From Lepidurus packardi (taxonomy: Eukaryota > Arthropoda > Branchiopoda > Notostraca > Triopsidae): a stretch of DNA of 64,000 nucleotides. Shown piece by piece: positions 1 to 53,830 of the stretch (position 1 is its first letter; each line of letters opens with the position of its first letter). The DNA is taken from the NCBI GenBank assembly GCA_023053545.1, contig JAKZAN010000158.1:1-64000 (forward strand), written 5' to 3'. The position numbers and the translations under genes were made by a program. A model generated the notes under the pieces. That model did no database searches. It was not told the origin of the DNA and saw only the letters and a program-made list of their open reading frames with translations.

Positions 1-3000
1 TAAGGAATAAGTTCAGTACGTAAGGAATTAATTCAGTCCGTAAGGAATTAATTAAGTCCGTAATGAATTAATTCAGTCCGTATGAAATTAATTCAGTCCG
101 TAATGGATTAATTAAGTCCGTAATGAATTAATTCAGTCCGTATGAAATTAATTCAGTCCGAAAGGAATTCATTAGTCCGTAAGGAATTAATTCAGTAAGA
201 AAGGAATTCAATCAATCCTAAAGAATTAATTCAGTCCGTAAGGAACTAATTCAGTCCGTAAGGAATTAATTCAGTCCGTAAGGAATTATTTCAGTCCGTA
301 ATTAATTCATTCATTCCTTACGGAATTAATTAAGTCCATAAGGAATTAATTTAGTCTGTAAGGATTTAATTAAGTCCGTAATGAATTAATTCAGTCCGTA
401 ATGAATTAATTCAGTCCGTAAGGATTTAATTCAGTCCGTAAGGTATTAATTCAGTCCGTAAGGAATTAATTCAGTCCGTAATGAATTAATTCAGTCCGTA
501 AGGAATTAATTCTGTCCGTAAGGATGTAATTCAGTCCGTGAGGTATTAATTCAGTCCGTAAGGAATTAATTCAGTCCGTAAGGAATTATTTCAGTCCGTA
601 AGGATTTAATTCAGTCCGTAAGGTATTAATTCAGTCCGTAAGGAATTAATTCAGTCCGTAAGGAATTAATTCAGTCCGTAAGGATATATTTCAGTCCGTA
701 AGGAATAAGTTCAGTACGTAAGGAATTAATTCAGTCCGTAATCGATTAATTAAGTCCGTAATGAATTAATTCAGTCCGTATGAAATTAACTCAGTCCGTA
801 AGGAATTAATTAAGGAATTAATTCAGTCCGTAAGGAATTAATTCAGTCCGTAAGGAATTAATTCAGTCCGTAATTAATTAATTCATTCCTTACGGAATTA
901 ATTAAGTCCATAAGGAATTAATTCAGTCTTTAAGGATTTAATTAAGTCCGTAATGAATTAATTCAGTCCGTAATGAATTAATTCAGTCCGTAAAGGATTT
1001 AATTCAGTCCGTAAGGTATTAATTCAGTCCGTAAGGAATTAATTCAGTCCGTAAGGAACTAATTCAGTCCGTAAGGAATTAATTCAGTCCGTAAGGAATT
1101 AATTCAGTCCGTAAGGAATTAATTCTGTCCGTAAGGATGTAATTCAGTCCGTAAGGTATTAATTCAGTCCGTAAGGAATTAATTCAGTCCGTAAGGAATT
1201 AATTCAGCCCGTAAGGAATAAGTTCAGTCCGTAAGGATTTAATTCAGTCCGTAAGGAATTAATTCTGTCCGTAAGGATGTAATTCAGTCCGTAAGGTATT
1301 AATTCAGTCCGTAAGGAATTAATTAAGTCCGTAAGGAATTATTTCAGTCCGTAAGGAATTATTTCAGTCCGTAATTAATTAATTCATTCCTTACGGTATT
1401 AATTAAGTCCATAAGGAATTAATTTAGTCTGTAAGGATTTAATTAAGTCCGTAATGAATTAATTCAGTCCGTAAGGAATAACTTCAGTACGTAAGGAAAT
1501 AATTCAGTCCGTAATTTATAAATTCAGTACGTAAGGAATTAATTCAGTCCGTAAGGAATTAATTCAGTCCGTAAGGATTTAATTCAGTCCGTAAGGTATT
1601 AATTCAGTCCGTAAGGAATTAATTCAGTCCGTAAGGAATTAATTCAGTCCGTAAGGAATAAGTTCAGTACGTAAGGAATTAATTCAGTCCGTAATCGATT
1701 AATTAAGTCCGTAATGAATTAATTAATTCCGTATGAAATTAACTCAGTCCGTAAGGAATTAATTAAGGAATTAATTCAGTCCGTAAGGAATTAATTCAAT
1801 CCGTAATTAATTAATTCATTCCTTACGGAATTAATTAAGTCCATAAGGAATTAATTTAGTCTGTAAGGATTTAATTAAGTCCGTAATGAATTAATTCAGT
1901 CCGTAAGGAATAACTTCAGTACGTAAGGAATAACTTCAGTACGTATGGAAATAATTCAGTCCGTAATTTATTAATTCAGTACGTAAGGAATTATTTCAGT
2001 CCGTAAGGATTTAATTCAGTCCGTAAGGAATAAGTTCAGTACGTAAGGAATTAATTCAGTCCGTAATCGATTAATTAAGTCCGTAATGAATTAATTCAGT
2101 CCGTATGAAATTAACTCAGTCCGTAAGGAATTAATTAAGGAATTAATTCAGTCCGTAAGGAATTAATTCAGTCCGTAAGGAATTAATTCAGTCCGTAATT
2201 AATTAATTCATTCCTTACGGAATTAATTAAGTCCATAAGGAATTAATTCTGTCCGTAAGGATGTAATTCAGTCCGTAAGGTATTAATTCAGTCCGTAAGG
2301 AATTATTTCAGTCCGTAAGGAATTAATTCAGCCCGTAAGGAATAAGTTCAGTCCGTAAGGATTTAATTCAGTCCGTAAGGAATTAATTCTGTCCGTAAGG
2401 ATGTAGTTCAGTCCGTAAGGTATTAATTCAGTCCGTAAGGAATTAATTAAGTCCGTAAGGAATTAATTCAGTCCGTAAGGAATTATTTCAGTCCGTAATT
2501 AATTAATTCATTCCTTACGGTATTAATTAAGTCCATAAGGAATTAATTTAGTCTGTAAGGATTTAATTAAGTCCGTAATGAATTAATTCAGTCCGTAAGG
2601 AATAACTTCAGTACGTAAGGAAATAATTCAGTCCGTAATTTATTAATTCAGTACGTAAGGAATTAATTCAGTCCGTAAGGAATTAATTCAGTCCGTAAGG
2701 ATTTAATTCAGTCCGTAAGGTATTAATTCAGTCCGTAAGGAATTAATTCAGTCCGTAAGGAATTAATTCAGTCCGTAAGGAATAAGTTCAGTACGTAAGG
2801 AATTAATTCAGTCCGTAATCGATTAATTAAGTCCGTAATGAATTAATTAAGTCCGTATGAAATTAACTCAGTCCGTAAGGAATTAATTAAGGAATTAATT
2901 CAGTCCGTAAGGAATTAATTCAATCCGTAATTAATTAATTCATTCCTTACGGAATTAATTAAGTCCATAAGGAATTAATTTAGTCTGTAATGATTTAATT

Positions 3001-3847
3001 AAGTCCGTAATGAATTAATTCAGTCCGTAAGGAATAACTTCAGTACGTAAGGAATAACTTCAGTACGTATGGAAATAATTCAGTCCGTAATTTATTAATT
3101 CAGTACGTAAGGAATTAATTCAGTCAGTAAGGAATTAATTCAGTCCGTAAGGAACTAATTCAGTCCGTAAGGATTTAATTCAGTCCGTAAGGATTTAATT
3201 CAGTCCGTAAGGTATTAATTCGGTCCGTAAGGAATTAATACAGTCCGTAAGGAATAAGTTCAGTACGTAAGGAATTAATTCAGTCCGTAATCGATTAATT
3301 AAGTCCGTAATGAATTAATTCAGTCCGTAAGGAATTAATTAAGTCCGTAAGGAATTAATTCAGTCCGTAAGGAATTAATTCAGTCCGTAAGGAATTAATT
3401 CAGTCAGTAAGGAATTATTTCAGTCCGTAAGGAATTAATTCAGTCCGTAAGGAATTATTTCAGTCCGTAAGGATTTAATTCAGTCCGTAAGGTATTAATT
3501 CAGTCCGTAAGGAATTAATTCAGTCCGTAATTAATTAATTCAGTCCGTAATTAATTAATTCATTCCTTACGGAATTAATTAAGTCCATAAGGAATTAATT
3601 CTGTCTGTAAGGATTTAATTAAGTCCGTAATGAATTAATTCAGTCCGTAATGAATTAATTCAGTCCGTAAGGATTTAATTCAGTCCGTAAGGTATTAATT
3701 CAGTCCGTAAGGAATTAATTCAGTCCGTAATGAATTAATTCAGTCCGTAAGGAATTAATTCTGTCCGTAAGGATGTAATTCAGTCCGTGAGGTATTAATT
3801 CAGTCCGTAAGGAATTAATTCAGTCCGTAAGGAATTAATTCAGTCCG
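1..3847 (+). repeat. Large higher-order unit, copy alpha (3,847 bp in window)
   Basis: The sequence from base 1 reappears at 3848 (offset 3,847) and again at 8908. Bases 1-1468 match 3848-5315 with a single substitution noticed (4872). Bases 361 to about 1500 also match 5281-6420 (offset 4,920), 1571 to about 2240 match at offset 4,860, and 2241-3847 match at offset 5,060. Alpha therefore carries one copy of a 1,073-bp block that is doubled in copy beta, has a 60-bp stretch (about 1511-1570) absent from beta, and lacks a 200-bp stretch present in beta. The unit start is arbitrary because the window opens inside the array. Confidence 0.85.
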
Positions 3848-6800
3848 TAAGGAATAAGTTCAGTACGTAAGGAATTAATTCAGTCCGTAAGGAATTAATT
3901 AAGTCCGTAATGAATTAATTCAGTCCGTATGAAATTAATTCAGTCCGTAATGGATTAATTAAGTCCGTAATGAATTAATTCAGTCCGTATGAAATTAATT
4001 CAGTCCGAAAGGAATTCATTAGTCCGTAAGGAATTAATTCAGTAAGAAAGGAATTCAATCAATCCTAAAGAATTAATTCAGTCCGTAAGGAACTAATTCA
4101 GTCCGTAAGGAATTAATTCAGTCCGTAAGGAATTATTTCAGTCCGTAATTAATTCATTCATTCCTTACGGAATTAATTAAGTCCATAAGGAATTAATTTA
4201 GTCTGTAAGGATTTAATTAAGTCCGTAATGAATTAATTCAGTCCGTAATGAATTAATTCAGTCCGTAAGGATTTAATTCAGTCCGTAAGGTATTAATTCA
4301 GTCCGTAAGGAATTAATTCAGTCCGTAATGAATTAATTCAGTCCGTAAGGAATTAATTCTGTCCGTAAGGATGTAATTCAGTCCGTGAGGTATTAATTCA
4401 GTCCGTAAGGAATTAATTCAGTCCGTAAGGAATTATTTCAGTCCGTAAGGATTTAATTCAGTCCGTAAGGTATTAATTCAGTCCGTAAGGAATTAATTCA
4501 GTCCGTAAGGAATTAATTCAGTCCGTAAGGATATATTTCAGTCCGTAAGGAATAAGTTCAGTACGTAAGGAATTAATTCAGTCCGTAATCGATTAATTAA
4601 GTCCGTAATGAATTAATTCAGTCCGTATGAAATTAACTCAGTCCGTAAGGAATTAATTAAGGAATTAATTCAGTCCGTAAGGAATTAATTCAGTCCGTAA
4701 GGAATTAATTCAGTCCGTAATTAATTAATTCATTCCTTACGGAATTAATTAAGTCCATAAGGAATTAATTCAGTCTTTAAGGATTTAATTAAGTCCGTAA
4801 TGAATTAATTCAGTCCGTAATGAATTAATTCAGTCCGTAAAGGATTTAATTCAGTCCGTAAGGTATTAATTCTGTCCGTAAGGAATTAATTCAGTCCGTA
4901 AGGAACTAATTCAGTCCGTAAGGAATTAATTCAGTCCGTAAGGAATTAATTCAGTCCGTAAGGAATTAATTCTGTCCGTAAGGATGTAATTCAGTCCGTA
5001 AGGTATTAATTCAGTCCGTAAGGAATTAATTCAGTCCGTAAGGAATTAATTCAGCCCGTAAGGAATAAGTTCAGTCCGTAAGGATTTAATTCAGTCCGTA
5101 AGGAATTAATTCTGTCCGTAAGGATGTAATTCAGTCCGTAAGGTATTAATTCAGTCCGTAAGGAATTAATTAAGTCCGTAAGGAATTATTTCAGTCCGTA
5201 AGGAATTATTTCAGTCCGTAATTAATTAATTCATTCCTTACGGTATTAATTAAGTCCATAAGGAATTAATTTAGTCTGTAAGGATTTAATTAAGTCCGTA
5301 ATGAATTAATTCAGTCCGTAATGAATTAATTCAGTCCGTAAGGATTTAATTCAGTCCGTAAGGTATTAATTCAGTCCGTAAGGAATTAATTCAGTCCGTA
5401 ATGAATTAATTCAGTCCGTAAGGAATTAATTCTGTCCGTAAGGATGTAATTCAGTCCGTGAGGTATTAATTCAGTCCGTAAGGAATTAATTCAGTCCGTA
5501 AGGAATTATTTCAGTCCGTAAGGATTTAATTCAGTCCGTAAGGTATTAATTCAGTCCGTAAGGAATTAATTCAGTCCGTAAGGAATTAATTCAGTCCGTA
5601 AGGATATATTTCAGTCCGTAAGGAATAAGTTCAGTACGTAAGGAATTAATTCAGTCCGTAATCGATTAATTAAGTCCGTAATGAATTAATTCAGTCCGTA
5701 TGAAATTAACTCAGTCCGTAAGGAATTAATTAAGGAATTAATTCAGTCCGTAAGGAATTAATTCAGTCCGTAAGGAATTAATTCAGTCCGTAATTAATTA
5801 ATTCATTCCTTACGGAATTAATTAAGTCCATAAGGAATTAATTCAGTCTTTAAGGATTTAATTAAGTCCGTAATGAATTAATTCAGTCCGTAATGAATTA
5901 ATTCAGTCCGTAAAGGATTTAATTCAGTCCGTAAGGTATTAATTCAGTCCGTAAGGAATTAATTCAGTCCGTAAGGAACTAATTCAGTCCGTAAGGAATT
6001 AATTCAGTCCGTAAGGAATTAATTCAGTCCGTAAGGAATTAATTCTGTCCGTAAGGATGTAATTCAGTCCGTAAGGTATTAATTCAGTCCGTAAGGAATT
6101 AATTCAGTCCGTAAGGAATTAATTCAGCCCGTAAGGAATAAGTTCAGTCCGTAAGGATTTAATTCAGTCCGTAAGGAATTAATTCTGTCCGTAAGGATGT
6201 AATTCAGTCCGTAAGGTATTAATTCAGTCCGTAAGGAATTAATTAAGTCCGTAAGGAATTATTTCAGTCCGTAAGGAATTATTTCAGTCCGTAATTAATT
6301 AATTCATTCCTTACGGTATTAATTAAGTCCATAAGGAATTAATTTAGTCTGTAAGGATTTAATTAAGTCCGTAATGAATTAATTCAGTCCGTAAGGAATA
6401 ACTTCAGTACGTAAGGAAATAATTCAGTCCGTAAGGATTTAATTCAGTCCGTAAGGTATTAATTCAGTCCGTAAGGAATTAATTCAGTCCGTAAGGAATT
6501 AATTCAGTCCGTAAGGAATAAGTTCAGTACGTAAGGAATTAATTCAGTCCGTAATCGATTAATTAAGTCCGTAATGAATTAATTAATTCCGTATGAAATT
6601 AACTCAGTCCGTAAGGAATTAATTAAGGAATTAATTCAGTCCGTAAGGAATTAATTCAATCCGTAATTAATTAATTCATTCCTTACGGAATTAATTAAGT
6701 CCATAAGGAATTAATTTAGTCTGTAAGGATTTAATTAAGTCCGTAATGAATTAATTCAGTCCGTAAGGAATAACTTCAGTACGTAAGGAATAACTTCAGT

Positions 6801-8907
6801 ACGTATGGAAATAATTCAGTCCGTAATTTATTAATTCAGTACGTAAGGAATTATTTCAGTCCGTAAGGATTTAATTCAGTCCGTAAGGAATAAGTTCAGT
6901 ACGTAAGGAATTAATTCAGTCCGTAATCGATTAATTAAGTCCGTAATGAATTAATTCAGTCCGTATGAAATTAACTCAGTCCGTAAGGAATTAATTAAGG
7001 AATTAATTCAGTCCGTAAGGAATTAATTCAGTCCGTAAGGAATTAATTCAGTCCGTAATTAATTAATTCATTCCTTACGGAATTAATTAAGTCCATAAGG
7101 AATTAATTCAGTCTGTAAGGATTTAATTAAGTCCGTAATGAATTAATTCAGTCCGTAATGAATTAATTCAGTCCGTAAGGATTTAATTCAGTCCGTAAGG
7201 TATTAATTCAGTCCGTAAGGAAATTATTCAGTCCGTAAGGAACTAATTCAGTCCGTAAGGAATTAATTCAGTCCGTAAGGAATTAATTCAGTCCGTAAGG
7301 AATTAATTCTGTCCGTAAGGATGTAATTCAGTCCGTAAGGTATTAATTCAGTCCGTAAGGAATTATTTCAGTCCGTAAGGAATTAATTCAGCCCGTAAGG
7401 AATAAGTTCAGTCCGTAAGGATTTAATTCAGTCCGTAAGGAATTAATTCTGTCCGTAAGGATGTAGTTCAGTCCGTAAGGTATTAATTCAGTCCGTAAGG
7501 AATTAATTAAGTCCGTAAGGAATTAATTCAGTCCGTAAGGAATTATTTCAGTCCGTAATTAATTAATTCATTCCTTACGGTATTAATTAAGTCCATAAGG
7601 AATTAATTTAGTCTGTAAGGATTTAATTAAGTCCGTAATGAATTAATTCAGTCCGTAAGGAATAACTTCAGTACGTAAGGAAATAATTCAGTCCGTAATT
7701 TATTAATTCAGTACGTAAGGAATTAATTCAGTCCGTAAGGAATTAATTCAGTCCGTAAGGATTTAATTCAGTCCGTAAGGTATTAATTCAGTCCGTAAGG
7801 AATTAATTCAGTCCGTAAGGAATTAATTCAGTCCGTAAGGAATAAGTTCAGTACGTAAGGAATTAATTCAGTCCGTAATCGATTAATTAAGTCCGTAATG
7901 AATTAATTAAGTCCGTATGAAATTAACTCAGTCCGTAAGGAATTAATTAAGGAATTAATTCAGTCCGTAAGGAATTAATTCAATCCGTAATTAATTAATT
8001 CATTCCTTACGGAATTAATTAAGTCCATAAGGAATTAATTTAGTCTGTAATGATTTAATTAAGTCCGTAATGAATTAATTCAGTCCGTAAGGAATAACTT
8101 CAGTACGTAAGGAATAACTTCAGTACGTATGGAAATAATTCAGTCCGTAATTTATTAATTCAGTACGTAAGGAATTAATTCAGTCAGTAAGGAATTAATT
8201 CAGTCCGTAAGGAACTAATTCAGTCCGTAAGGATTTAATTCAGTCCGTAAGGATTTAATTCAGTCCGTAAGGTATTAATTCGGTCCGTAAGGAATTAATA
8301 CAGTCCGTAAGGAATAAGTTCAGTACGTAAGGAATTAATTCAGTCCGTAATCGATTAATTAAGTCCGTAATGAATTAATTCAGTCCGTAAGGAATTAATT
8401 AAGTCCGTAAGGAATTAATTCAGTCCGTAAGGAATTAATTCAGTCCGTAAGGAATTAATTCAGTCAGTAAGGAATTATTTCAGTCCGTAAGGAATTAATT
8501 CAGTCCGTAAGGAATTATTTCAGTCCGTAAGGATTTAATTCAGTCCGTAAGGTATTAATTCAGTCCGTAAGGAATTAATTCAGTCCGTAATTAATTAATT
8601 CAGTCCGTAATTAATTAATTCATTCCTTACGGAATTAATTAAGTCCATAAGGAATTAATTCTGTCTGTAAGGATTTAATTAAGTCCGTAATGAATTAATT
8701 CAGTCCGTAATGAATTAATTCAGTCCGTAAGGATTTAATTCAGTCCGTAAGGTATTAATTCAGTCCGTAAGGAATTAATTCAGTCCGTAATGAATTAATT
8801 CAGTCCGTAAGGAATTAATTCTGTCCGTAAGGATGTAATTCAGTCCGTGAGGTATTAATTCAGTCCGTAAGGAATTAATTCAGTCCGTAAGGAATTAATT
8901 CAGTCCG
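3848..8907 (+). repeat. Large higher-order unit, copy beta (5,060 bp)
   Basis: Every marker from 3848 recurs 5,060 bp later until about 11474. Relative to copy alpha, beta has gained a tandem 1,073-bp duplication (4208-5280 and 5281-6353), lost three monomers (60 bp, at about 6431), and gained ten monomers (200 bp, about 7101-7300, including the odd GGAAATTATTCAG monomer). The arithmetic closes exactly: 3,847 + 1,073 - 60 + 200 = 5,060. Rare point variants such as AATTAATTCCGTATG (1724 and 6584) are kept between alpha and beta, so the matches reflect copying and not chance similarity of monomers. Confidence 0.88.
4208..6353 (+). repeat. Tandem duplication, 2 x 1,073 bp, in copy beta
   Basis: Bases 4208-5280 and 5281-6353 match monomer for monomer at an offset of 1,073. 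Shared oddities include the 21-bp monomer with GTAAAGGATTT (about 4837 and 5909), the GGATATATTTCAG monomer, the GTCTTTAAGG variant after an inverted core, and one 32-bp monomer. The only difference noticed is T at 4872 (CTGTCCG), shared with gamma at 9932 but absent from the second copy and from alpha. The period equals 53 monomers plus 12 bp (the 32-bp form) and 1 bp (the 21-bp form). Confidence 0.85.
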
Positions 8908-11474
8908 TAAGGAATAAGTTCAGTACGTAAGGAATTAATTCAGTCCGTAAGGAATTAATTAAGTCCGTAATGAATTAATTCAGTCCGTATGAAATTAATT
9001 CAGTCCGTAATGGATTAATTAAGTCCGTAATGAATTAATTCAGTCCGTATGAAATTAATTCAGTCCGAAAGGAATTCATTAGTCCGTAAGGAATTAATTC
9101 AGTAAGAAAGGAATTCAATCAATCCTAAAGAATTAATTCAGTCCGTAAGGAACTAATTCAGTCCGTAAGGAATTAATTCAGTCCGTAAGGAATTATTTCA
9201 GTCCGTAATTAATTCATTCATTCCTTACGGAATTAATTAAGTCCATAAGGAATTAATTTAGTCTGTAAGGATTTAATTAAGTCCGTAATGAATTAATTCA
9301 GTCCGTAATGAATTAATTCAGTCCGTAAGGATTTAATTCAGTCCGTAAGGTATTAATTCAGTCCGTAAGGAATTAATTCAGTCCGTAATGAATTAATTCA
9401 GTCCGTAAGGAATTAATTCTGTCCGTAAGGATGTAATTCAGTCCGTGAGGTATTAATTCAGTCCGTAAGGAATTAATTCAGTCCGTAAGGAATTATTTCA
9501 GTCCGTAAGGATTTAATTCAGTCCGTAAGGTATTAATTCAGTCCGTAAGGAATTAATTCAGTCCGTAAGGAATTAATTCAGTCCGTAAGGATATATTTCA
9601 GTCCGTAAGGAATAAGTTCAGTACGTAAGGAATTAATTCAGTCCGTAATCGATTAATTAAGTCCGTAATGAATTAATTCAGTCCGTATGAAATTAACTCA
9701 GTCCGTAAGGAATTAATTAAGGAATTAATTCAGTCCGTAAGGAATTAATTCAGTCCGTAAGGAATTAATTCAGTCCGTAATTAATTAATTCATTCCTTAC
9801 GGAATTAATTAAGTCCATAAGGAATTAATTCAGTCTTTAAGGATTTAATTAAGTCCGTAATGAATTAATTCAGTCCGTAATGAATTAATTCAGTCCGTAA
9901 AGGATTTAATTCAGTCCGTAAGGTATTAATTCTGTCCGTAAGGAATTAATTCAGTCCGTAAGGAACTAATTCAGTCCGTAAGGAATTAATTCAGTCCGTA
10001 AGGAATTAATTCAGTCCGTAAGGAATTAATTCTGTCCGTAAGGATGTAATTCAGTCCGAAAGGTATTAATTCAGTCCGTAAGGAATTAATTCAGTCCGTA
10101 AGGAATTAATTCAGCCCGTAAGGAATAAGTTCAGTCCGTAAGGATTTAATTCAGTCCGTAAGGAATTAATTCTGTCCGTAAGGATGTAATTCAGTCCGTA
10201 AGGTATTAATTCAGTCCGTAAGGAATTAATTAAGTCCGTAAGGAATTATTTCAGTCCGTAAGGAATTATTTCAGTCCGTAATTAATTAATTCATTCCTTA
10301 CGGTATTAATTAAGTCCATAAGGAATTAATTTAGTCTGTAAGGATTTAATTAAGTCCGTAATGAATTAATTCAGTCCGTAATGAATTAATTCAGTCCGTA
10401 AGGATTTAATTCAGTCCGTAAGGTATTAATTCAGTCCGTAAGGAATTAATTCAGTCCGTAATGAATTAATTCAGTCCGTAAGGAATTAATTCTGTCCGTA
10501 AGGATGTAATTCAGTCCGTGAGGTATTAATTCAGTCCGTAAGGAATTAATTCAGTCCGTAAGGAATTATTTCAGTCCGTAAGGATTTAATTCAGTCCGTA
10601 AGGTATTAATTCAGTCCGTAAGGAATTAATTCAGTCCGTAAGGAATTAATTCAGTCCGTAAGGATATATTTCAGTCCGTAAGGAATAAGTTCAGTACGTA
10701 AGGAATTAATTCAGTCCGTAATCGATTAATTAAGTCCGTAATGAATTAATTCAGTCCGTATGAAATTAACTCAGTCCGTAAGGAATTAATTAAGGAATTA
10801 ATTCAGTCCGTAAGGAATTAATTCAGTCCGTAAGGAATTAATTCAGTCCGTAATTAATTAATTCATTCCTTACGGAATTAATTAAGTCCATAAGGAATTA
10901 ATTCAGTCTTTAAGGATTTAATTAAGTCCGTAATGAATTAATTCAGTCCGTAATGAATTAATTCAGTCCGTAAAGGATTTAATTCAGTCCGTAAGGTATT
11001 AATTCAGTCCGTAAGGAATTAATTCAGTCCGTAAGGAACTAATTCAGTCCGTAAGGAATTAATTCAGTCCGTAAGGAATTAATTCAGTCCGTAAGGAATT
11101 AATTCTGTCCGTAAGGATGTAATTCAGTCCGTAAGGTATTAATTCAGTCCGTAAGGAATTAATTCAGTCCGTAAGGAATTAATTCAGCCCGTAAGGAATA
11201 AGTTCAGTCCGTAAGGATTTAATTCAGTCCGTAAGGAATTAATTCTGTCCGTAAGGATGTAATTCAGTCCGTAAGGTATTAATTCAGTCCGTAAGGAATT
11301 AATTAAGTCCGTAAGGAATTATTTCAGTCCGTAAGGAATTATTTCAGTCCGTAATTAATTAATTCATTCCTTACGGTATTAATTAAGTCCATAAGGAATT
11401 AATTTAGTCTGTAAGGATTTAATTAAGTCCGTAATGAATTAATTCAGTCCGTAAGGAATAACTTCAGTACGTAA
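8908..11474 (+). repeat. Large higher-order unit, partial copy gamma
   Basis: This stretch repeats 3848-6414 at an offset of 5,060, including both copies of the 1,073-bp block. I saw one substitution in about 2,570 bp: A at 10059 where beta has T at 4999. After about 11474 the match switches to beta 7685 onward (offset 3,796), so gamma lacks the 1,264 bp that separate beta's two CCTTACGGTATT landmarks (6309 and 7573). Such near-identity indicates very recent duplication and is also the kind of place where assemblies can go wrong. Confidence 0.85.
9268..11413 (+). repeat. Tandem duplication, 2 x 1,073 bp, in copy gamma
   Basis: Bases 9268-10340 and 10341-11413 are the same doubled 1,073-bp block as in copy beta, displaced by 5,060 bp. 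Its presence in both beta and gamma but not in alpha shows that the 1,073-bp doubling came before the 5,060-bp amplification, or that alpha lost one copy. Confidence 0.83.
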
Positions 11475-13924
11475 GGAAATAATTCAGTCCGTAATTTATT
11501 AATTCAGTACGTAAGGAATTAATTCAGTCCGTAAGGAATTAATTCAGTCCGTAAGGATTTAATTCAGTCCGTAAGGTATTAATTCAGTCCGTAAGGAATT
11601 AATTCAGTCCGTAAGGAATTAATTCAGTCCGTAAGGAATAAGTTCAGTACGTAAGGAATTAATTCAGTCCGTAATCGATTAATTAAGTCCGTAATGAATT
11701 AATTAAGTCCGTATGAAATTAACTCAGTCCGTAAGGAATTAATTAAGGAATTAATTCAGTCCGTAAGGAATTAATTCAATCCGTAATTAATTAATTCATT
11801 CCTTACGGAATTAATTAAGTCCATAAGGAATTAATTTAGTCTGTAAGGATTTAATTAAGTCCGTAATGAATTAATTCAGTCCGTAAGGAATAACTTCAGT
11901 ACGTAAGGAATAACTTCAGTACGTATGGAAATAATTCAGTCCGTAATTTATTAATTCAGTACGTAAGGAATTAATTCAGTCAGTAAGGAATTAATTCAGT
12001 CCGTAAGGAACTAATTCAGTCCGTAAGGAATTAATTCAGTCCGTAAGGATTTAATTCAGTCCGTAAGGTATTAATTCAGTCCGTAAGGAATTAATACAGT
12101 CCGTAAGGAATAAGTTCAGTACGTAAGGAATTAATTCAGTCCGTAATCGATTAATTAAGTCCGTAATGAATTAATTCAGTCCGTATGAAATTAATTCAGT
12201 CCGTAAGGAATTAATTCAGTCCGTAAGGAATTAATTCAGTCCGTAAGGAATTATTTCAGTCCGTAATTAATTAATTCATTCCTTACGGAATTAAATAAGT
12301 CCATAAGGAATTAATTCAGTCTGTAAGGATTTAATTAAGTCCGTAATGAATTAATTCAGTCCGTAAGGAATTAATTAAGTCCGTAAGGAATTAATTCAGT
12401 CCGTAAGGAATTAATTCAGTCCGTAAGGAATTAATTCAGTCAGTAAGGAATTATTTCAGTCCGTAAGGAATTAATTCAGTCCGTAAGGAATTATTTTAGT
12501 CCGTAAGGATTTAATTCAGTCCGTAAGGTATTAATTCAGTCCGTAAGGAATCATTTCAGTCCGTAAGGATTTAATTCAGTCCGTAAGGAATTAATTCAGT
12601 CCGTAAGGAATTAATTCAGTCCGTAAGGAATTATTTCAGTCCGTAATTAATTAATTCATTCCTTACGGTATTAATTAAGTCCATAAGGAATTAATTTAGT
12701 CTGTAAGGATTTAATTAAGTCCGTAATGAATTAATTCAGTCCGTAAGGAATAACTTCAGTACGTAAGGAAATAATTCAGTCCGTAATTTATTAATTCAGT
12801 ACGTAAGGAATTAATTCAGTCCGTAAGGAATTAATTCAGTCCGTAAGGATTTAATTCAGTCCGTAAGGTATTAATTCAGTCCGTAAGGAATTAATTCAGT
12901 CCGTAAGGAATTAATTCAGTCCGTAAGGAATAAGTTCAGTACGTAAGGAATTAATTCAGTCCGTAATCGATTAATTAAGTCCGTAATGAATTAATTAAGT
13001 CCGTATGAAATTAACTCAGTCCGTAAGGAATTAATTAAGGAATTAATTCAGTCCGTAAGGAATTAATTCAATCCGTAATTAATTAATTCATTCCTTACGG
13101 AATTAATTAAGTCCATAAGGAATTAATTTAGTCTGTAAGGATTTAATTAAGTCCGTAATGAATTAATTCAGTCCGTAAGGAATAACTTCAGTACGTAAGG
13201 AATAACTTCAGTACGTATGGAAATAATTCAGTCCGTAATTTATTAATTCAGTACGTAAGGAATTAATTCAGTCAGTAAGGAATTAATTCAGTCCGTAAGG
13301 AACTAATTCAGTCCGTAAGGAATTAATTCAGTCCGTAAGGATTTAATTCAGTCCGTAAGGTATTAATTCAGTCCGTAAGGAATTAATACAGTCCGTAAGG
13401 AATAAGTTCAGTACGTAAGGAATTAATTCAGTCCGTAATCGATTAATTAAGTCCGTAATGAATTAATTCAGTCCGTATGAAATTAATTCAGTCCGTAAGG
13501 AATTAATTCAGTCCGTAAGGAATTAATTCAGTCCGTAAGGAATTATTTCAGTCCGTAATTAATTAATTCATTCCTTACGGAATTAAATAAGTCCATAAGG
13601 AATTAATTCAGTCTGTAAGGATTTAATTAAGTCCGTAATGAATTAATTCAGTCCGTAAGGAATTAATTAAGTCCGTAAGGAATTAATTCAGTCCGTAAGG
13701 AATTAATTCAGTCCGTAAGGAATTAATTCAGTCAGTAAGGAATTATTTCAGTCCGTAAGGAATTAATTCAGTCCGTAAGGAATTATTTTAGTCCGTAAGG
13801 ATTTAATTCAGTCCGTAAGGTATTAATTCAGTCCGTAAGGAATCATTTCAGTCCGTAAGGATTTAATTCAGTCCGTAAGGAATTAATTCAGTCCGTAAGG
13901 AATTAATTCAGTCCGTAAGGAATT
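11369..13924 (+). repeat. Tandem duplication, about 2 x 1,292 bp
   Basis: Markers repeat at an offset of 1,292: CCTTACGGTATT at 11369 and 12661, CCTTACGGAATTAAATAAG at 12281 and 13573, and a GGAATCATTTCAG monomer near 12545 and 13838. Sequence identity starts about 40 bp before the first landmark (about 11329) and ends near 13924, where copy 2 has TTAATTCAGTCAG against TTATTTCAG in copy 1. The first 750 bp of each copy are homologous to beta 7573-8320. The period is 64 monomers plus one 12-bp extension. Confidence 0.85.
12621..12668. repeat. Representative inverted repeat around an inverted core
   Basis: CCGTAAGGAAT (12621-12631) and ATTCCTTACGG (12658-12668) are perfect 11-bp inverted arms with a 26-bp spacer. 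A closer 6-bp pair, CCGTAA (12641-12646) and TTACGG (12663-12668), leaves a 16-bp spacer. The same geometry holds at most of the other core sites because the preceding two monomers are conserved. A hairpin or cruciform is possible in single-stranded or supercoiled DNA; no function can be read from sequence. Confidence 0.8.
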
Positions 13925-15050
13925 AATTCAGTCAGTAAGGAATTAATTCAGCCCGTAAGGAATTAATTCAGTCCGTAAGGAATTAATTCAGTCAGTAAGG
14001 AATTAATTCAGTCCGTATGGAATTAATTCAATCCGTAAGGAATTCATTCAGTCCGTAAGGAATTATTCAGTGAGAAAGGAATTCAATCAATCTTAAATAA
14101 TTAATTCAGTCCGTAAAGAACTAATTCAGTCTGTATTGAATTAATTAAGTCCGTAAGGAATTAATTAAGTCCGTAAGGAATTAATTCAGTCCGTAAGGAA
14201 TTATTTCAGTCCGTAATTAATTAATTCATTCCTTACGGAATTAATTAAGTCCATAAGGAATTAATTTAGTCTGTAAGGATTTAATTAAGTCCGTAATGAA
14301 TTAATTCAGTCCGTAAGGAATAACTTCAGTACGTAAGGAATAACTTCAGTACGTAAGGAAATAATTCAGTCCGTAATGGATTTTTTCTGTACGTAAGGAA
14401 TTAATTCAGTCAGTAAGGAATTGATTCAGTCCGTAAGGTATTAATTCAGTCCGTAAGGAATTAATTCAGTCCGTAAGGAATTAATTCAGTCCGTAAGGAA
14501 TAAGTTCAGTACGTAAGGAATTAATTCTGTCCGTATGAAATTAATTAAGTCCGTAATGAATTAATTCAGTCCGTATGAAATTAATTCAGTCCGTAAGGAA
14601 TTAATTCAGTCCGTAAGGAATTAATTCAGTCCGTAAGGAATTATATCAGTCCGTAATTAATTAATTCATTCCTTACGGAATTAATTAAGTCCATAAGGAA
14701 TTAATTTAGTCTGTAAGGATTTAATTAAGTCCGTAAGGAATTAATTCAGTCCGTAAGGAATTAATTCAGTCAGTAAGGAATTAATTCAGTCCGTAAGGAA
14801 TTAATTCAGTCCGTAAGGAATTATTTCAGTCCGTAAGGATTTAATTCAGTCCGTAAGGTATTAATTCAGTCCGTAAGGAATTAATTCAGTCCGTAAGGAA
14901 TTAATTCAGTCCGTAAGGATATATTTCAGTCCGTAAGGAATAAGTTCAGTACGTAAGGAATTAATTCAGTCCGTAATCGATTAATTAAGTCCGTAATGAA
15001 TTAATTCAGTCCGTAAGAAATTAACTCAGTACGTAAGGAATTAATTAAGG
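13925..15050 (+). repeat. Bridge segment between the 1,292- and 1,104-bp duplications
   Basis: This is monomer array without an obvious adjacent duplicate. It contains the first GTGAGAAAGG-AATTCAATCAATC pair (14072), here ending TTAAATAATT, and it lies 159 bp from the inverted core at 14231 (later copies keep 179 bp). A second core is at 14671, preceded by a unique TTATATCAG monomer. It also has a unique monomer with a run of six T (14381-14386). The segment mixes domain 1 and domain 2 markers and may be an older exchange product. Confidence 0.6.
14373..14400 (+). repeat. Unique T6-containing monomer
   Basis: One monomer reads GTAATGGATTTTTTCTGTACG, with T at six successive bases where AATTAATT is expected. 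I saw it nowhere else in the window, so it is a private mutation useful as a single-copy sequence tag. Confidence 0.7.
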
Positions 15051-15059
15051 AATTAATTC

Positions 15060-17064
15060 AGTCCGTAAGGAATTAATTCAGTCCGTAGTTAATTAATTCA
15101 TTCCTTACGGAATTAATTAAGTCCATAAGGAATTAATTCAGTCTGTAAGGATTTAATTAAGTCCGTAATGAATTAATTCAGACCGTAAGGAATTAATTCA
15201 GTCCGTAAGGAATTAATTCAGTCCGTAAGGAATTAATTCAGTCCGTAAGGATTTAATTCAGTCCGTAAGGTATTAATTCAGTCCGTAAGGAATTAATTCA
15301 GTCCGTAAGGAACTAATTCAGTCCGTAAGGAATTAATTCAGTCCGTAAGGAATTAATTCTGTCCGTGAGGATGTAATTCAGTCCGTAAGGTATAAATTCA
15401 GTCCGTAAGGAATTAATTCAGTCCGTAAGGAATTAATTCAGTCCGTAAGGATATAATTCAGTCCGTAAGGAATAAGTTCAGTACGTAAGGAATTAATTCA
15501 GTCCGTAATCGATTAATTAAGTCCGTAATGAATTAATTCAGTCCGTATGAAATTAACTCAGTCCGTAAGGAATTAATTAAGGAATTAATTCAGTCCGTAA
15601 GGAATTAATTCAGTCCGTAATTAATTAATTCATACCTTACGGAATTAATTAAGTCCATAAGGAATTAATTCAGTCTGTAAGGATTTAATTAAGTCCGTAA
15701 TGAATTAATTCAGTCCGTAATGAATTAATTCAGTCCGTAAGGATTTAATTCAGTCCGTAAGGTATTAATTCAGTCCGTAAGGAATTAATTCAGTCCGTAA
15801 GGAACTAATTCAGTCCGTAAGGAATTAATTCAGTCCGTAAGGAATTAATTCAGTCCGTAAGGAATTAATTCTGTCCGTAAGGATGTAATTCAGTCCGTAA
15901 GGTATTAATTCAGTCCGTAAGGAATTAATTCAGTCCGTAAGGAATTAATTCAGCCCGTAAGGAATTAATTCAGTCCGTAAGGAATTAATTCAGTCCGTAA
16001 GGATATATTTCAGTCCGTAAGGAATAAGTTCAGTACGTAAGGAATTAATTCAGTCCGTAATCGATTAATTAAGTCCGTAATGAATTAATTCAGTCCGTAT
16101 GAAATTAACTCAGTCCGTAAGGAATTAATTAAGGAATTAATTCAGTCCGTAAGGAATTAATTCAGTCCGTAAGGAATTAATTCAGTCCGTAATTAATTAA
16201 TTCATTCCTTACGGAATTAATTAAGTCCATAAGGAATTAATTCAGTCTGTAAGGATTTAATTAAGTCCGTAATGAATTAATTCAGACCGTAAGGAATTAA
16301 TTCAGTCCGTAAGGAATTAATTCAGTCCGTAAGGAATTAATTCAGTCCGTAAGGATTTAATTCAGTCCGTAAGGTATTAATTCAGTCCGTAAGGAATTAA
16401 TTCAGTCCGTAAGGAACTAATTCAGTCCGTAAGGAATTAATTCAGTCCGTAAGGAATTAATTCTGTCCGTGAGGATGTAATTCAGTCCGTAAGGTATTAA
16501 TTCAGTCCGTAAGGAATTAATTCAGTCCGTAAGGAATTAATTCAGTCCGTAAGGATATAATTCAGTCCGTAAGGAATAAGTTCAGTACGTAAGGAATTAA
16601 TTCAGTCCGTAATCGATTAATTAAGTCCGTAATGAATTAATTCAGTCCGTATGAAATTAACTCAGTCCGTAAGGAATTAATTAAGGAATTAATTCAGTCC
16701 GTAAGGAATTAATTCAGTCCGTAATTAATTAATTCATACCTTACGGAATTAATTAAGTCCATAAGGAATTAATTCAGTCTGTAAGGATTTAATTAAGTCC
16801 GTAATGAATTAATTCAGTCCGTAATGAATTAATTCAGTCCGTAAGGATTTAATTCAGTCCGTAAGGTATTAATTCAGTCCGTAAGGAATTAATTCAGTCC
16901 GTAAGGAACTAATTCAGTCCGTAAGGAATTAATTCAGTCCGTAAGGAATTAATTCAGTCCGTAAGGAATTAATTCTGTCCGTAAGGATGTAATTCAGTCC
17001 GTAAGGTATTAATTCAGTCCGTAAGGAATTAATTCAGTCCGTAAGGAATTAATTCAGCCCGTAA
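15060..17064 (+). repeat. Tandem duplication, about 2 x 1,104 bp
   Basis: Copies lie at about 15060-15960 and 16164-17064. Paired markers are CAGACCG at 15181 and 16285, CATACCTTACGG (a one-base variant of the inverted core's left flank, unique to this pair) at 15631 and 16735, and GTCCGTGAGGATG near 15361 and 16465. Differences noticed are GTAGTT against GTAATT at 15088/16192 and TATAAATT against TATTAATT near 15391/16495. The period is 54 monomers plus two 12-bp extensions. Confidence 0.83.
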
Positions 17065-17154
17065 GGAATAAGTTCAGTCCGTAAGGATTTAATTCAGTCC
17101 GTAAGGTATTAATTCAGTCCGTAAGGAATTAATTCAGTCCGTAAGGAATTAATT

Positions 17155-18357
17155 CAGTCCGTAAGGATATAATTCAGTCCGTAAGGAATAAGTTCAGTAC
17201 GTAAGGAATTAATTCAGTCCGTAATCGATTAATTAAGTCCGTAATGAATTAATTCAGTCCGTATGAAATTAACTCAGTCCGTAAGGAATTAATTAAGGAA
17301 TTAATTCAGTCCGTAAGGAATTAATTCAGTCCGTAATTAATTAATTCAGTCCGTAATTAATTAATTCATTCCTTACGGAATTAATTAAGTCCATAAGGAA
17401 TTAATTCAGTCTGTAAGGATTTAATTAAGTCCGTAATGAATTAATTCAGTCCGTAATGAATTAATTCAGTCCGTAAGGATTTAATTCAGTCCGTAAGGTA
17501 TTAATTCAGTCCGTAAGGAATTAATTCAGTCCGTAATGAATTAATTCAGTCCGTAAGGAATTAATTCTGTCCGTAAGGATGTAATTCAGTCCGTGAGGTA
17601 TTAATTCAGTCCGTAAGGAATTAATTCAGTCCGTAAGGAATTAATTCAGTCCGTAAGGAATAAGTTCAGTACGTAAGGAATTAATTCAGTCCGTAATGGA
17701 TTAATTAAGTCCGTAATGAATTAATTCAGTCCGTATGAAATTAATTCAGTCCGTAAGGAATTCATTAGTCCGTAAGGAATTAATTCAGTAAGAAAGGAAT
17801 TCAATCAATCCTAAAGAATTAATTCAGTCCGTAAGGAACTAATTCAGTCCGTAAGGAATTAATTCTGTCCGTAAGGAATTAATTCAGTCCGTAAGGAATT
17901 AATTCAGTCCGTAAGGAATTATTTCAGTCCGTAATTAATTCATTCATTCCTTACGGAATTAATTAAGTCCATAAGGAATTAATTTAGTCTGTAAGGATTT
18001 AATTAAGTCCGTAATGAATTAATTCAGTCCGTAAGGAATAACTTCAGTACGTAAGGAAATAATTCAGTAAGTAATGGATTAATTAAGTCCGTAATGAATT
18101 AATTCAGTCCGTAAGGAATTAATAAAATCCGTACGGAATTAATTCAGTCCGAAAGGAATTAATTCAGTCCGTAATTAATAAGTTCAGTACGTAAGGAATT
18201 AATTCAGTCCGTATTGGATTAATTAAGTCCGTAATTAATAAGTTCAGTACGTAAGGAATTAATTAAGTCCGTAATGGATTAATTAAGTCCGTAATGAATT
18301 AATTCAGTCCGTATGAAATTAATTCAGTCCGTAAGGAATTCATTCAGTCCGTAAGGA
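17155..18357 (+). repeat. 2,150-bp-period duplication, copy 1
   Basis: This segment recurs at 19305-20507. It runs from a GGATATAATT monomer through GTACG, AATCGATT, a 32-bp monomer, a doubled TTAATTAATTCAG before the core at 17371, the AGTAAGAAAGG-AATTCAATC pair near 17790, and into the first 480-bp unit. No difference was noticed between the copies. The 480-bp triplet lies between the shared ends, so expansion to three copies explains much of the 2,150-bp spacing. Confidence 0.83.
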
Positions 18358-19339
18358 TATAATTCAGTCCGTAAGGAATTAATTCAGTCCGTAAGGAATT
18401 ATTTCAGTCCGTAATTAATTCATTCATTCCTTACGGAATTAATTAAGTCCATAAGGAATTAATTTAGTCTGTAAGGATTTAATTAAGTCCGTAATGAATT
18501 AATTCAGTCCGTAAGGAATAACTTCAGTACGTAAGGAAATAATTCAGTAAGTAATGGATTAATTAAGTCCGTAATGAATTAATTCAGTCCGTAAGGAATT
18601 AATAAAATCCGTACGGAATTAATTCAGTCCGAAAGGAATTAATTCAGTCCGTAATTAATAAGTTCAGTACGTAAGGAATTAATTCAGTCCGTATTGGATT
18701 AATTAAGTCCGTAATTAATAAGTTCAGTACGTAAGGAATTAATTAAGTCCGTAATGGATTAATTAAGTCCGTAATGAATTAATTCAGTCCGTATGAAATT
18801 AATTCAGTCCGTAAGGAATTCATTCAGTCCGTAAGGATATAATTCAGTCCGTAAGGAATTAATTCAGTCCGTAAGGAATTATTTCAGTCCGTAATTAATT
18901 CATTCATTCCTTACGGAATTAATTAAGTCCATAAGGAATTAATTTAGTCTGTAAGGATTTAATTAAGTCCGTAATGAATTAATTCAGTCCGTAAGGAATA
19001 ACTTCAGTACGTAAGGAAATAATTCAGTAAGTAATGGATTAATTAAGTCCGTAATGAATTAATTCAGTCCGTAAGGAATTAATAAAATCCGTACGGAATT
19101 AATTCAGTCCGAAAGGAATTAATTCAGTCCGTAATTAATAAGTTCAGTACGTAAGGAATTAATTCAGTCCGTATTGGATTAATTAAGTCCGTAATTAATA
19201 AGTTCAGTACGTAAGGAATTAATTAAGTCCGTAATGGATTAATTAAGTCCGTAATGAATTAATTCAGTCCGTATGAAATTAATTCAGTCCGTAAGGAATT
19301 CATTCAGTCCGTAAGGATATAATTCAGTCCGTAAGGAAT
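17881..19339 (+). repeat. Perfect 480-bp higher-order tandem, 3 copies
   Basis: Units at 17881-18360, 18361-18840 and 18841-19320 read identically line by line, and identity continues to about 19339. Each has 24 monomers, one inverted core (17949, 18429, 18909), the CpG-decayed pair, AATAAAATCCGTACGG, GTCCGAAAGG, two GTAATTAATAAGTTCAGTACG monomers, GTATTGGATT, TATGAAATT, GGAATTCATT and GGATATAATT. No substitution was noticed in 1,440 bp. A partial fourth copy is at 20031-20507. Confidence 0.92.
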
Positions 19340-20507
19340 AAGTTCAGTACGTAAGGAATTAATTCAGTCCGTAATCGATTAATTAAGTCCGTAATGAATT
19401 AATTCAGTCCGTATGAAATTAACTCAGTCCGTAAGGAATTAATTAAGGAATTAATTCAGTCCGTAAGGAATTAATTCAGTCCGTAATTAATTAATTCAGT
19501 CCGTAATTAATTAATTCATTCCTTACGGAATTAATTAAGTCCATAAGGAATTAATTCAGTCTGTAAGGATTTAATTAAGTCCGTAATGAATTAATTCAGT
19601 CCGTAATGAATTAATTCAGTCCGTAAGGATTTAATTCAGTCCGTAAGGTATTAATTCAGTCCGTAAGGAATTAATTCAGTCCGTAATGAATTAATTCAGT
19701 CCGTAAGGAATTAATTCTGTCCGTAAGGATGTAATTCAGTCCGTGAGGTATTAATTCAGTCCGTAAGGAATTAATTCAGTCCGTAAGGAATTAATTCAGT
19801 CCGTAAGGAATAAGTTCAGTACGTAAGGAATTAATTCAGTCCGTAATGGATTAATTAAGTCCGTAATGAATTAATTCAGTCCGTATGAAATTAATTCAGT
19901 CCGTAAGGAATTCATTAGTCCGTAAGGAATTAATTCAGTAAGAAAGGAATTCAATCAATCCTAAAGAATTAATTCAGTCCGTAAGGAACTAATTCAGTCC
20001 GTAAGGAATTAATTCTGTCCGTAAGGAATTAATTCAGTCCGTAAGGAATTAATTCAGTCCGTAAGGAATTATTTCAGTCCGTAATTAATTCATTCATTCC
20101 TTACGGAATTAATTAAGTCCATAAGGAATTAATTTAGTCTGTAAGGATTTAATTAAGTCCGTAATGAATTAATTCAGTCCGTAAGGAATAACTTCAGTAC
20201 GTAAGGAAATAATTCAGTAAGTAATGGATTAATTAAGTCCGTAATGAATTAATTCAGTCCGTAAGGAATTAATAAAATCCGTACGGAATTAATTCAGTCC
20301 GAAAGGAATTAATTCAGTCCGTAATTAATAAGTTCAGTACGTAAGGAATTAATTCAGTCCGTATTGGATTAATTAAGTCCGTAATTAATAAGTTCAGTAC
20401 GTAAGGAATTAATTAAGTCCGTAATGGATTAATTAAGTCCGTAATGAATTAATTCAGTCCGTATGAAATTAATTCAGTCCGTAAGGAATTCATTCAGTCC
20501 GTAAGGA
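19305..20507 (+). repeat. 2,150-bp-period duplication, copy 2
   Basis: This is the second copy of 17155-18357. Checked anchors at an offset of 2,150: GGATATAATT (17161/19311), the shortened TTCATTAGTCCG monomer (17761/19911), CTGTCC (17861/20011) and CATTCATTCC (17941/20091). It ends in a partial fourth 480-bp unit that continues into GGAATTCATT and GGAATTCGTT monomers instead of GGATATAATT. Confidence 0.83.
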
Positions 20508-21320
20508 ATTCATTCAGTCCGTAAGGAATTCGTTCAGTCCGTAAGGAATTAATTCAGCGAGAAAGGAATTCAATCAATCTTAAAGAATTAATTCAATCCG
20601 TAAGGAACTAATTCAGTCCGTAAGGAATTAATTCAGTCCGTAAGGAAATAATTAAGTCCGTAAGGAATTAATTAAGTCCGTAAGGAATTAATTCAGTCCG
20701 TAAGGAATTAATTCAGTCCGTAAGGAATTATTTCAGTCCGTAATTAATTAATTCATTCCTTACGGAATTAATTAAGTCCATAAGGAATTAATTTAGTCTG
20801 TAAGGATTTAATTAAGTCCGTAATGAATTAATTCAGTCCGTAAGGAATTAATTCAGTCCGTAAGGAATTAATTCAGTCCGTAAGGAATTAATTCAGTCCG
20901 TAAGGAATTAATTCAGTCCGTAAGGAATTAATTCTGTCCGTGAGGATGTAATTCAGTCCGTAAGGTATTAATTAAGTCCGTAAGGAATTAATTCACTCCG
21001 TAAGGAATTAATTCAGTCCGTAAGGAATTAATTCAGTCCGTAAGAAATTAATTCAGTCAGTAAGGAATTAATTCAGTCCGTATGAAATTAATTCAGTCCG
21101 TAAGGAATTCATTCAGTCCGTAAGGAATTCATTCAGTCCGTAAGGAATTATTCAGTGAGAAAGGAATTCAATCAATCTTAAAGAATTAATTCAGTCCGTA
21201 AGGAACTAATTCAGTCCGTAAGGAATTAATTCAGTCCGTAAGGAATTAATTAAGTCCGTAAGGAATTAATTAAGTCCGTAAGGAATTAATTAAGTCCGTA
21301 AGGAATTAATTCAGTCCGTA
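20184..21320 (+). repeat. 1,137-bp duplication, copy 1
   Basis: The unit starts with GGAATAACTTCAGTACG and ends just before the same string at 21321. It includes the AATAAAATCCGTACGG monomer, GTATTGGATT, a unique GGAATTCGTT monomer (20531), the GCGAGAAAGG variant (20559), an inverted core at 20758, GTGAGGATG and a GTGAGAAAGG pair at 21157. The period is an odd number because of 19-bp monomers in the AGAAAGG pairs. Confidence 0.85.
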
Positions 21321-22377
21321 AGGAATAACTTCAGTACGTAAGGAAATAATTCAGTAAGTAATGGATTAATTAAGTCCGTAATGAATTAATTCAGTCCGTA
21401 AGGAATTAATAAAATCCGTACGGAATTAATTCAGTCCGAAAGGAATTAATTCAGTCCGTAATTAATAAGTTCAGTACGTAAGGAATTAATTCAGTCCGTA
21501 TTGGATTAATTAAGTCCGTAATTAATAAGTTCAGTACGTAAGGAATTAATTAAGTCCGTAATGGATTAATTAAGTCCGTAATGAATTAATTCAGTCCGTA
21601 TGAAATTAATTCAGTCCGTAAGGAATTCATTCAGTCCGTAAGGAATTCATTCAGTCCGTAAGGAATTCGTTCAGTCCGTAAGGAATTAATTCAGCGAGAA
21701 AGGAATTCAATCAATCTTAAAGAATTAATTCAATCCGTAAGGAACTAATTCAGTCCGTAAGGAATTAATTCAGTCCGTAAGGAAATAATTAAGTCCGTAA
21801 GGAATTAATTAAGTCCGTAAGGAATTAATTCAGTCCGTAAGGAATTAATTTAGTCTGTAAGGATTTAATTAAGTCCGTAATGAATTAATTCAGTCCGTAA
21901 GGAATTAATTCAGTCCGTAAGGAATTAATTCAGTCCGTAAGGAATTAATTCAGTCCGTAAGGAATTAATTCAGTCCGTAAGGAATTAATTCTGTCCGTGA
22001 GGATGTAATTCAGTCCGTAAGGTATTAATTAAGTCCGTAAGGAATTAATTCACTCCGTAAGGAATTAATTCAGTCCGTAAGGAATTAATTCAGTCCGTAA
22101 GAAATTAATTCAGTCAGTAAGGAATTAATTCAGTCCGTATGAAATTAATTCAGTCCGTAAGGAATTCATTCAGTCCGTAAGGAATTCATTCAGTCCGTAA
22201 GGAATTATTCAGTGAGAAAGGAATTCAATCAATCTTAAAGAATTAATTCAGTCCGTAAGGAACTAATTCAGTCCGTAAGGAATTAATTCAGTCCGTAAGG
22301 AATTAATTAAGTCCGTAAGGAATTAATTAAGTCCGTAAGGAATTAATTAAGTCCGTAAGGAATTAATTCAGTCCGTA
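21321..22377 (+). repeat. 1,137-bp duplication, copy 2 with 80-bp loss
   Basis: This copy matches 20184 onward at an offset of 1,137 (GGAATTCGTT at 20531/21668, GCGAGAAAGG at 20559/21696) until about 21840. There 80 bp are missing, namely the TTATTTCAG monomer, the inverted core and GTCCATAAGG. Later markers match at an offset of 1,057 (CTGTCCGTGAGG at 20935/21992, GTGAGAAAGG at 21157/22214). The loss is exactly four monomer lengths and removes a whole inverted core without disturbing phase. Confidence 0.85.
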
Positions 22378-48030: not shown

Positions 48031-48199
48031 TTAATTCAGTCCGTAAGGATTTAATTCAGTCCGTAAGGTATTAATTCAGTCCGTAAGGAATTAATTCAGT
48101 CCGTAATTAATTAATTCAGTCCGTAAGAAATTAATTCAGTTAGTAATCGATTAATTAAGTCCGTAATGAATTAATACAGTCAGTATGAAATTAATTCAG

Positions 48200-53494: not shown

Positions 53495-53739
53495 TTCAGT
53501 CCGTAAGGAATTAATTCAGTCCGTAATGGATTAATTAAGTCCGTAATGAATTAATTCAGTCCGTAAGGAATTAATTCAGTCCGTAAGGAATTCATTCAGT
53601 CCGTAAGGAATTAATTCAGTAAGAAAGGAATTCAATCAATCCTAAATAATTTATTCAGTCCGTAAGGAGCTAATTCAGTCCGTAAGGAATTAATTCTGTC
53701 CGTAAGGAATTAATTCAGTCCGTAAGGAATTATTTCAGT

Positions 53740-53830
53740 CCGTAATTAATTCATTCATTCCTTACGGAATTATTTCAGTCCGTAATTAATTCATTCATTC
53801 CTTACGGAATTAATTAAGTCCATAAGGAAT
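53740..53830. repeat. Doubled inverted core, 40-bp spacing
   Basis: Cores at 53760 and 53800 are only two monomers apart. The 40-bp string TTATTTCAG, GTAATTAATT, CATTCATT and core is repeated. The pair recurs at 54421/54461 (first core mutated to CCATACGG), 55702/55742 and 56363/56403. Nowhere else are cores closer than 240 bp. Confidence 0.85.

Follow-up and report, generated by a model that had tools for sequence, protein, structure and literature searches.

Higher-order repeats (HORs), such as those of human alpha satellite, are among the closest described systems to the locus reported here. In these arrays, as at this locus, ordered monomer variants are nested in larger units, and near-identical stretches lie beside diverged ones (excerpts of PMC11062924, PMC9549924). 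Unequal exchange is a usual explanation for such repeat structures (excerpts of PMC9549924, PMC12400953, PMC11062924), and duplication histories have been estimated earlier from repeat variants (excerpts of PMC6364452). Here we describe a satellite with a 20-bp monomer, consensus TAAGGAATTAATTCAGTCCG, which fills the first 64,000 bases (the window) of an 83,478-bp contig of Lepidurus packardi (JAKZAN010000158.1, C147 below), position 1 being the first base of the contig. A preliminary description of positions 1-11474 had recognised three copies of a roughly 5-kb unit, starting at 1 (alpha), 3848 (beta) and 8908 (gamma), and had taken beta and gamma to be sisters. We find that beta has the composition of a hybrid, gamma-like up to at least 5244 and alpha-like from 6587 at the latest, and that one tandem duplication of about 5.12 kb, lying in a different phase from these copies, would explain both of its halves.

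Interval map and the hybrid unit

The marker motif CATTCCTTACGG occurs at 125 places in the window, from 312 to 63825 (up to two mismatches). It resembles a piece of the monomer's reverse strand and possibly originated in a small, old inversion. Its sites split the array into intervals, those of alpha being named A, B, C, D, E, C', F and G in order. The interval lengths in bp are 572, 501, 432, 392, 300, 432, 620 and 598 in alpha; 572, 501, 572, 501, 372, 392, 500, 432, 620 and 598 in beta; and 572, 501, 572, 501, 432, 480, 380, 432, 480 and 658 in gamma. The copy spacings of 3,847 and 5,060 bp are borne out by these markers, as is the 1,073-bp doubling (572 + 501), which is present in beta and gamma, with alpha single. 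Homology of the three starts is likewise secure, since positions 1-1025, 3848-4872 and 8908-9932 are exactly identical. Position 1 is not a copy boundary, however, because it is the edge of the contig, and alpha is therefore an open-ended piece.

The proposed sister relation of beta and gamma is true of half a unit only. In the left half they differ at one of 2,457 positions. In the right half beta and alpha show no differences over 2,714 positions (2 gaps), whereas beta and gamma show 146 over 2,801 (9 gaps), and a three-way alignment of this half contains 130 sites at which alpha and beta agree, none at which beta and gamma agree and none at which alpha and gamma agree. Gamma is thus not a whole third copy: beyond the left half it first departs from beta at 6587/11707, and from 6854/11974 onwards the two differ densely.

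In the phase of the markers, the same region consists of two copies of C-D-E-C'-F-G-A-B-A-B, here called P1 and P2 (Table 1). They differ by one mismatch over 4,860 aligned bases plus a 200-bp gap in P1 and a 60-bp gap in P2; with the lost lengths restored, each would measure 5,120 bp. The frame of the preliminary description cuts across this duplication, and this is why the two halves of beta have different sisters. A simple tandem duplication should match over at least its full period: the 5.12-kb repeat does so when the 60- and 200-bp losses are allowed for (without gaps, 0.83 of the period is matched), and the period of 1,073 bp carries a match of 1,150 bp. The copies P1 and P2 (1 difference in 4,860) are also far more alike than the monomers, which match their consensus at 92.8% of bases, as in an HOR; the many copies and homogeneous array of an HOR are not seen, there being two 5.12-kb copies and two exact occurrences of the doubled junction genome-wide. 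Repeats of this length are far above chance: when the order of the monomers was shuffled 20 times, no exact repeat exceeded 155 bp, whereas the longest one in the array measures 2,763 bp.

A 5,060-bp duplication with its left edge at 2236 was considered and rejected, the ungapped match there (4,199 bp) being shorter than the period; the edge is instead that of the 200-bp loss in alpha. Positions 7260-7330 hold no new junction, the same 71 bases being found at 1076, 4923, 5996, 9983, 11056, 15822 and 16926.

Table 1. Features of the locus, in coordinates of the window
Feature	Position	Strand	Evidence
20-bp satellite array, consensus TAAGGAATTAATTCAGTCCG	1..64000	+	Tandem Repeats Finder, monomer decomposition
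Single A-B block of alpha, pre-doubling arrangement	312..1384 (marker phase; 225-1297 in block-comparison phase)	+	1 difference from beta block 1, 5 from beta block 2 over 1,073 bp
77-bp identity, partner 1 (the exchange doubling A-B would lie within)	325..401	+	Exact identity with 1398-1474; nearest differences at offsets 99 and 177
77-bp identity, partner 2	1398..1474	+	Exact identity with 325-401
P1, first copy of ~5,120-bp segment, reduced to 4,920 bp by a 200-bp loss	1385..6304	+	1 mismatch in 4,860 against 6305-11364
300-bp interval E of alpha, with the 200-bp loss at 2236-2249 (14 bp shared by its ends)	2209..2508	+	Homologue 7069-7568 of 500 bp; 14-bp identity
Beta block 1 (A-B), bears T at 4873	4072..5144	+	Block comparison
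Beta block 2 (A-B); doubled junction 5237-5338	5145..6217	+	Block comparison, exact genome search
Region without differences among alpha (325-1514), beta and gamma (10305-11494); 5.12-kb exchange most likely here, at latest before 6587	5245..6434	+	Exact matches at offsets 4920 and 5060
P2, second copy of ~5,120-bp segment, 5,060 bp now (60 bp lost)	6305..11364	+	Alignment with P1
372-bp interval C of beta, with the 60-bp loss at 6420-6434 (15 bp shared by its ends)	6305..6676	+	Comparison with alpha's 432-bp interval
Gamma block 1, T at 9933, private A at 10059	9132..10204	+	Block comparison
Gamma block 2, identical to beta block 2; doubled junction 10297-10398	10205..11277	+	Block comparison, exact genome search
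Separate complete tandem duplication, period 1,292	11323..13925	+	0 mismatches in 1,311

The length difference between alpha and beta had previously been resolved into +1,073, -60 and +200 bp, and the exactness of the sum was offered as support. The sum carries no evidence: the gaps of any global alpha-beta alignment must total the length difference of 1,213 bp, so that agreement is automatic, and an alternative set of gaps (300 + 413 + 300 + 200) has the same total. The individual steps fare better. The missing 60 bp is real and private to beta, whose interval of 372 bp corresponds to 432 bp in the homologues at 1385, 2509, 7569, 11365 and 12657 and differs from the 432-bp interval of alpha by one 60-bp gap, with 0 mismatches. 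The 200-bp step (ten monomers) has the size proposed and the opposite sign: alpha lost 200 bp and beta did not gain them, because beta's 500-bp interval (7069-7568) has full-length homologues in five 501-bp intervals (6 to 8 mismatches and a 1-base gap), while that of alpha measures 300 bp. The junction left by alpha's loss occurs once, exactly, in the genome. The gamma counterpart of interval E is diverged and 380 bp long, and has no bearing on this step. We also rejected the idea that beta gained 200 bp in tandem, because the 200-bp stretch has full-length homologues and because 7002-7201 and 7202-7401 differ by 10 and 11 per 100 bases.

Blocks and the order of steps

Over 1,073 bp, the alpha block differs at one position from the first block of beta and at five from the second; the first blocks of beta and gamma differ at one position, their second blocks at none, and the two blocks within a copy at six (beta) and seven (gamma). 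A maximum likelihood tree, with 15,544-16,647 as outgroup, joins the two second blocks (identical rows) and the two first blocks (support 82/81) and sets alpha beside the latter pair (87/86), neither inner branch attaining the tool's starred support level. The beta and gamma blocks hence pair first with first and second with second, as had been predicted, the blocks within one copy being farther apart. Just seven sites vary across the blocks, five of them within the first 100 bp, which is explained as the edge of an exchange. Genome-wide occurrences of junctions, and of the dimer discussed below, were counted by exact-pattern searches. The doubled junction is found at two places in the genome and the start of A at three, all on C147.

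Beta and gamma do share the T reported as private to them, at 4873 and 9933 (4872 and 9932, as first given, are one base low), but it is private only in register: besides these two sites, 14 others in the window have a T at the corresponding place of a similar 41-base context (up to two mismatches), 16 in all. T postdates the doubling and predates the 5.12-kb duplication, because it is in both copies yet absent from the second blocks.

A history in four steps would fit these observations. A single 1,073-bp A-B may have become A-B-A-B by exchange between two paralogous stretches with 77 identical bases in common. The T would then have arisen in the first B of this doubled unit. An out-of-register exchange between the A-B/C regions of a single-block and a double-block unit would next have produced the ~5,120-bp tandem duplication of C-D-E-C'-F-G-A-B-A-B, and with it beta, with a gamma-like left half and an alpha-like right half. 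Three changes, unordered among themselves, would have followed: losses of 200 bp from the first copy and of 60 bp from the second, and a base change at 10059. The two losses are each private to one copy and therefore postdate the 5.12-kb duplication, and the same holds for the A at 10059.

The doubling step can be followed in the composition of the second beta block. Positions 225-500 and 1298-1573 of alpha are paralogous and have 77 bp as their longest identical run, and the match at period 1,073 measures 1,150 bp, that is, 1,073 + 77. Offsets 0-176 of the second beta block equal alpha 1298-1474, and its offsets 100-1289 equal alpha 325-1514, which is the product that an exchange inside the 77-bp run would give. 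What the sequence itself shows is where the matches lie and end, the polarity of both losses, and that beta and gamma have the T and the doubling in common. Behind the 3,847-bp relation of 1-1474 to 3848-5321 there was presumably a still earlier duplication, now cut by the contig edge.

The preliminary description was right that the order of steps is readable here, although the order it proposed differs from ours, in which the 200 bp is a late loss. Its view of the locus as a rare case is not supported, the estimation of duplication histories being established work (excerpts of PMC6364452, PMC11062924). Overall, its copies and indels are partly confirmed and its interpretation is partly supported; what it described is real and mostly good, the phase and the sign of the 200-bp step being wrong. 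It is somewhat probable, in our judgement, that a 20-bp animal satellite grows by kilobase-scale exchange between paralogous blocks and that six changes can be ordered at one place, the last three remaining unordered among themselves.

Competing explanations

Taken as a whole, the best-supported history is that of part of an unexceptional 20-bp satellite array undergoing turnover, with ordered exchange steps, and we consider it likely. Several observations count against it. The number of differences between beta and gamma depends on gap costs, cheaper long gaps giving 68 in 2,328 aligned bases from 6420 on. When the D and E intervals alone were aligned with MAFFT, 47 sites united alpha and beta, 17 beta and gamma, and 14 alpha and gamma; in our reading the last two groups stem from misplacement near the 200-bp gap in alpha, since the pairwise comparison of alpha and beta there gives 0 differences in 392 and 0 in 300. 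MAFFT also set a 20/20 gap pair in the alignment of P1 and P2, where the exact match is unbroken. With T present at 14 other similar contexts in the window, conversion could have supplied it. A contraction by exchange somewhere within block offsets 100-800 would leave an alpha indistinguishable from an ancestral one. Just one substitution separates P1 from P2, and two wrongly joined haplotypes could give the same data.

Such false joining is the main risk to the duplication reading: P1 and P2 would be two haplotypes of one segment, placed head to tail by the assembler in an unresolved repeat. Their difference (one substitution and two indels) is of allelic size, the window begins a separate 83-kb contig with satellite in all parts read, and misassembled tandem duplication in a long-read assembly is documented (excerpts of PMC12400953). 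Six other periods on C147 nevertheless show matches of a full period or more (among 170 listed segments), and no other contig carries the exact doubled junction. We regard an assembly artefact as quite unlikely. Less credible still, and in our view very improbable, is the history first proposed, in which beta and gamma are sisters over the whole unit, alpha is the outgroup and 200 bp were gained in beta. The doubling and the T common to beta and gamma would follow from it, as would the pairing of first with first and second with second blocks, but it conflicts with a right half of beta that equals alpha and departs from gamma, and with the presence of the 200-bp stretch in homologous 501-bp intervals, and it requires a later replacement of gamma's entire right half.

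Two further possibilities are variants of the preferred history of ordered exchanges, and our estimates for them apply to them as such and not as competitors. The preliminary description had left alpha as either ancestral or contracted. Under contraction, its single block would be A-B-A-B minus one block, removed by exchange between the two, and a break at offsets 100-800 fits, since alpha resembles block 1 at offsets up to 99 and block 2 at offset 801. This variant is the weaker one, and unlikely: it adds an event, since the doubled junction implies a single-block precursor with exactly alpha's flanks, and the A at offset 801, the state of the second blocks of beta and gamma, is by far the commoner in similar contexts. 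Alpha is more simply ancestral because it has the arrangement needed before the doubling. It is also possible, if doubtful, that the copies arose by replication-based copying (break-induced replication or template switching) or by conversion rather than by unequal exchange between chromatids. The sequence outcome would be identical, the two losses share 14 and 15 bp at their ends, and the duplications of period 1,292 and 564 exceed their period by just 19 and 17 bp, about what one 20-bp monomer contributes by itself. The two main steps, on the other hand, lie in longer identity (77 and 1,190 bp), as for homologous exchange, and we infer exchange between sister chromatids.

The wider array and comparison with known systems

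Tandem Repeats Finder returned a single row spanning 1-64000, with period 20 and 85% matches, and the window decomposed into 3,228 monomers (3,087 of 20 bp; 244 variants). A truncated 12-base monomer, TAAGGAATTAAT, occurs 62 times. Past the window, the remainder of C147, scanned as three portions, contains 427, 431 and 160 monomers (up to three mismatches), all of them on the + strand. The exact 40-base dimer is found 30,618 times in the assembly of 108,557,554 bases in 344 contigs (13,236 + 17,382), 486 of these on C147. The array therefore has both marks of satellite DNA, a long head-to-tail array of a short monomer (period 20 across 1-64000) and a high genome copy number (30,618 exact dimers). 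If the dimer density of C147 is applied throughout the assembly, the satellite would come to some 5 Mb, which is only a rough estimate. It is also present at the end of the 14.05-Mb contig C1, after a run of N (2,325 N in one scanned locus); all 100 listed places are on C1, and the dimers among the matches listed begin at 13,957,479 of 14,048,370, five of them lying on the opposite strand at 14,015,505-14,015,964. Twelve test strings sought in 13 loci of C1, which were also scanned for monomers, gave no match. Six typed forms of the monomer were not found by a text search of 5.39 million open-access papers.

A survey of periods on C147 (170 listed segments of 400 bp or more) found six further periods with matches of at least the full period: 1,942; 1,292; 480 (three copies); 661 (9 mismatches in 717); 564; and 444. 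The feature at 1-11474 is therefore no exception but typical for this array. Positions 53490-57580 hold the complete tandem duplication of period 1,942 (2 mismatches in 2,149 bp), and 17880-19339 three tandem copies of a 480-bp unit (a 980-bp match at period 480, 0 mismatches).

Elsewhere in the assembly, exact runs of five TTAGG units are found at 104 overlapping places, and no exact run of four TTAGGC units occurs. The longest TTAGG runs among the matches listed are on contig C86 at 58115-58434, in two stretches (58115-58264 and 58295-58434) that may extend further and may form a telomeric array. Mitochondrial insertions, read with the invertebrate code, are present at C6:695716-699924 and also on C1, C2, C4, C5, C21 and C38. 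One of them, when translated, reads cox1, followed by a stretch that we take, by eye, to be cox2; ARAGORN found no tRNA on this insertion. In a COX1 family search of the genome, 37 of the 41 matches listed contain internal TGA. Matches without internal stops, on C52, C214 and C43 (GC of the stretch 41, 66 and 41%), probably derive from bacterial cobionts or contamination.

The locus is no new kind of system and represents ordinary unequal-exchange evolution. It does provide a clean, checkable example of the way out-of-register exchange can give rise to a hybrid repeat unit, and a warning that copies delimited by an arbitrary frame can mislead a family tree, as one unit may have different sisters for each half. 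If the reading is true, such loci could act as clocks for satellite turnover.

The present array differs from the HORs of human alpha satellite in monomer length, 20 bp against about 171 bp, and in that its interval pattern changes after one or two copies, with no long homogeneous array of the unit. A paper on centromeric satellites of Drosophila sibling species names 20-bp repeats (excerpts of PMC5844345), a likeness of repeat length by term match for which no kinship is claimed. In the Drosophila histone cluster, copy number also changes by out-of-register exchange, in that case unequal sister-chromatid exchange (excerpts of PMC12400953), but the cluster was studied by haplotype comparison, whereas the present locus is gene-free satellite and its history is drawn from one assembly. 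Computational tandem-duplication histories (excerpts of PMC6364452) and minisatellite maps (excerpts of PMC2674676, PMC2897807) also recover history from repeat variants; here, by contrast, this was done by hand at one locus, from match lengths, markers and junctions.

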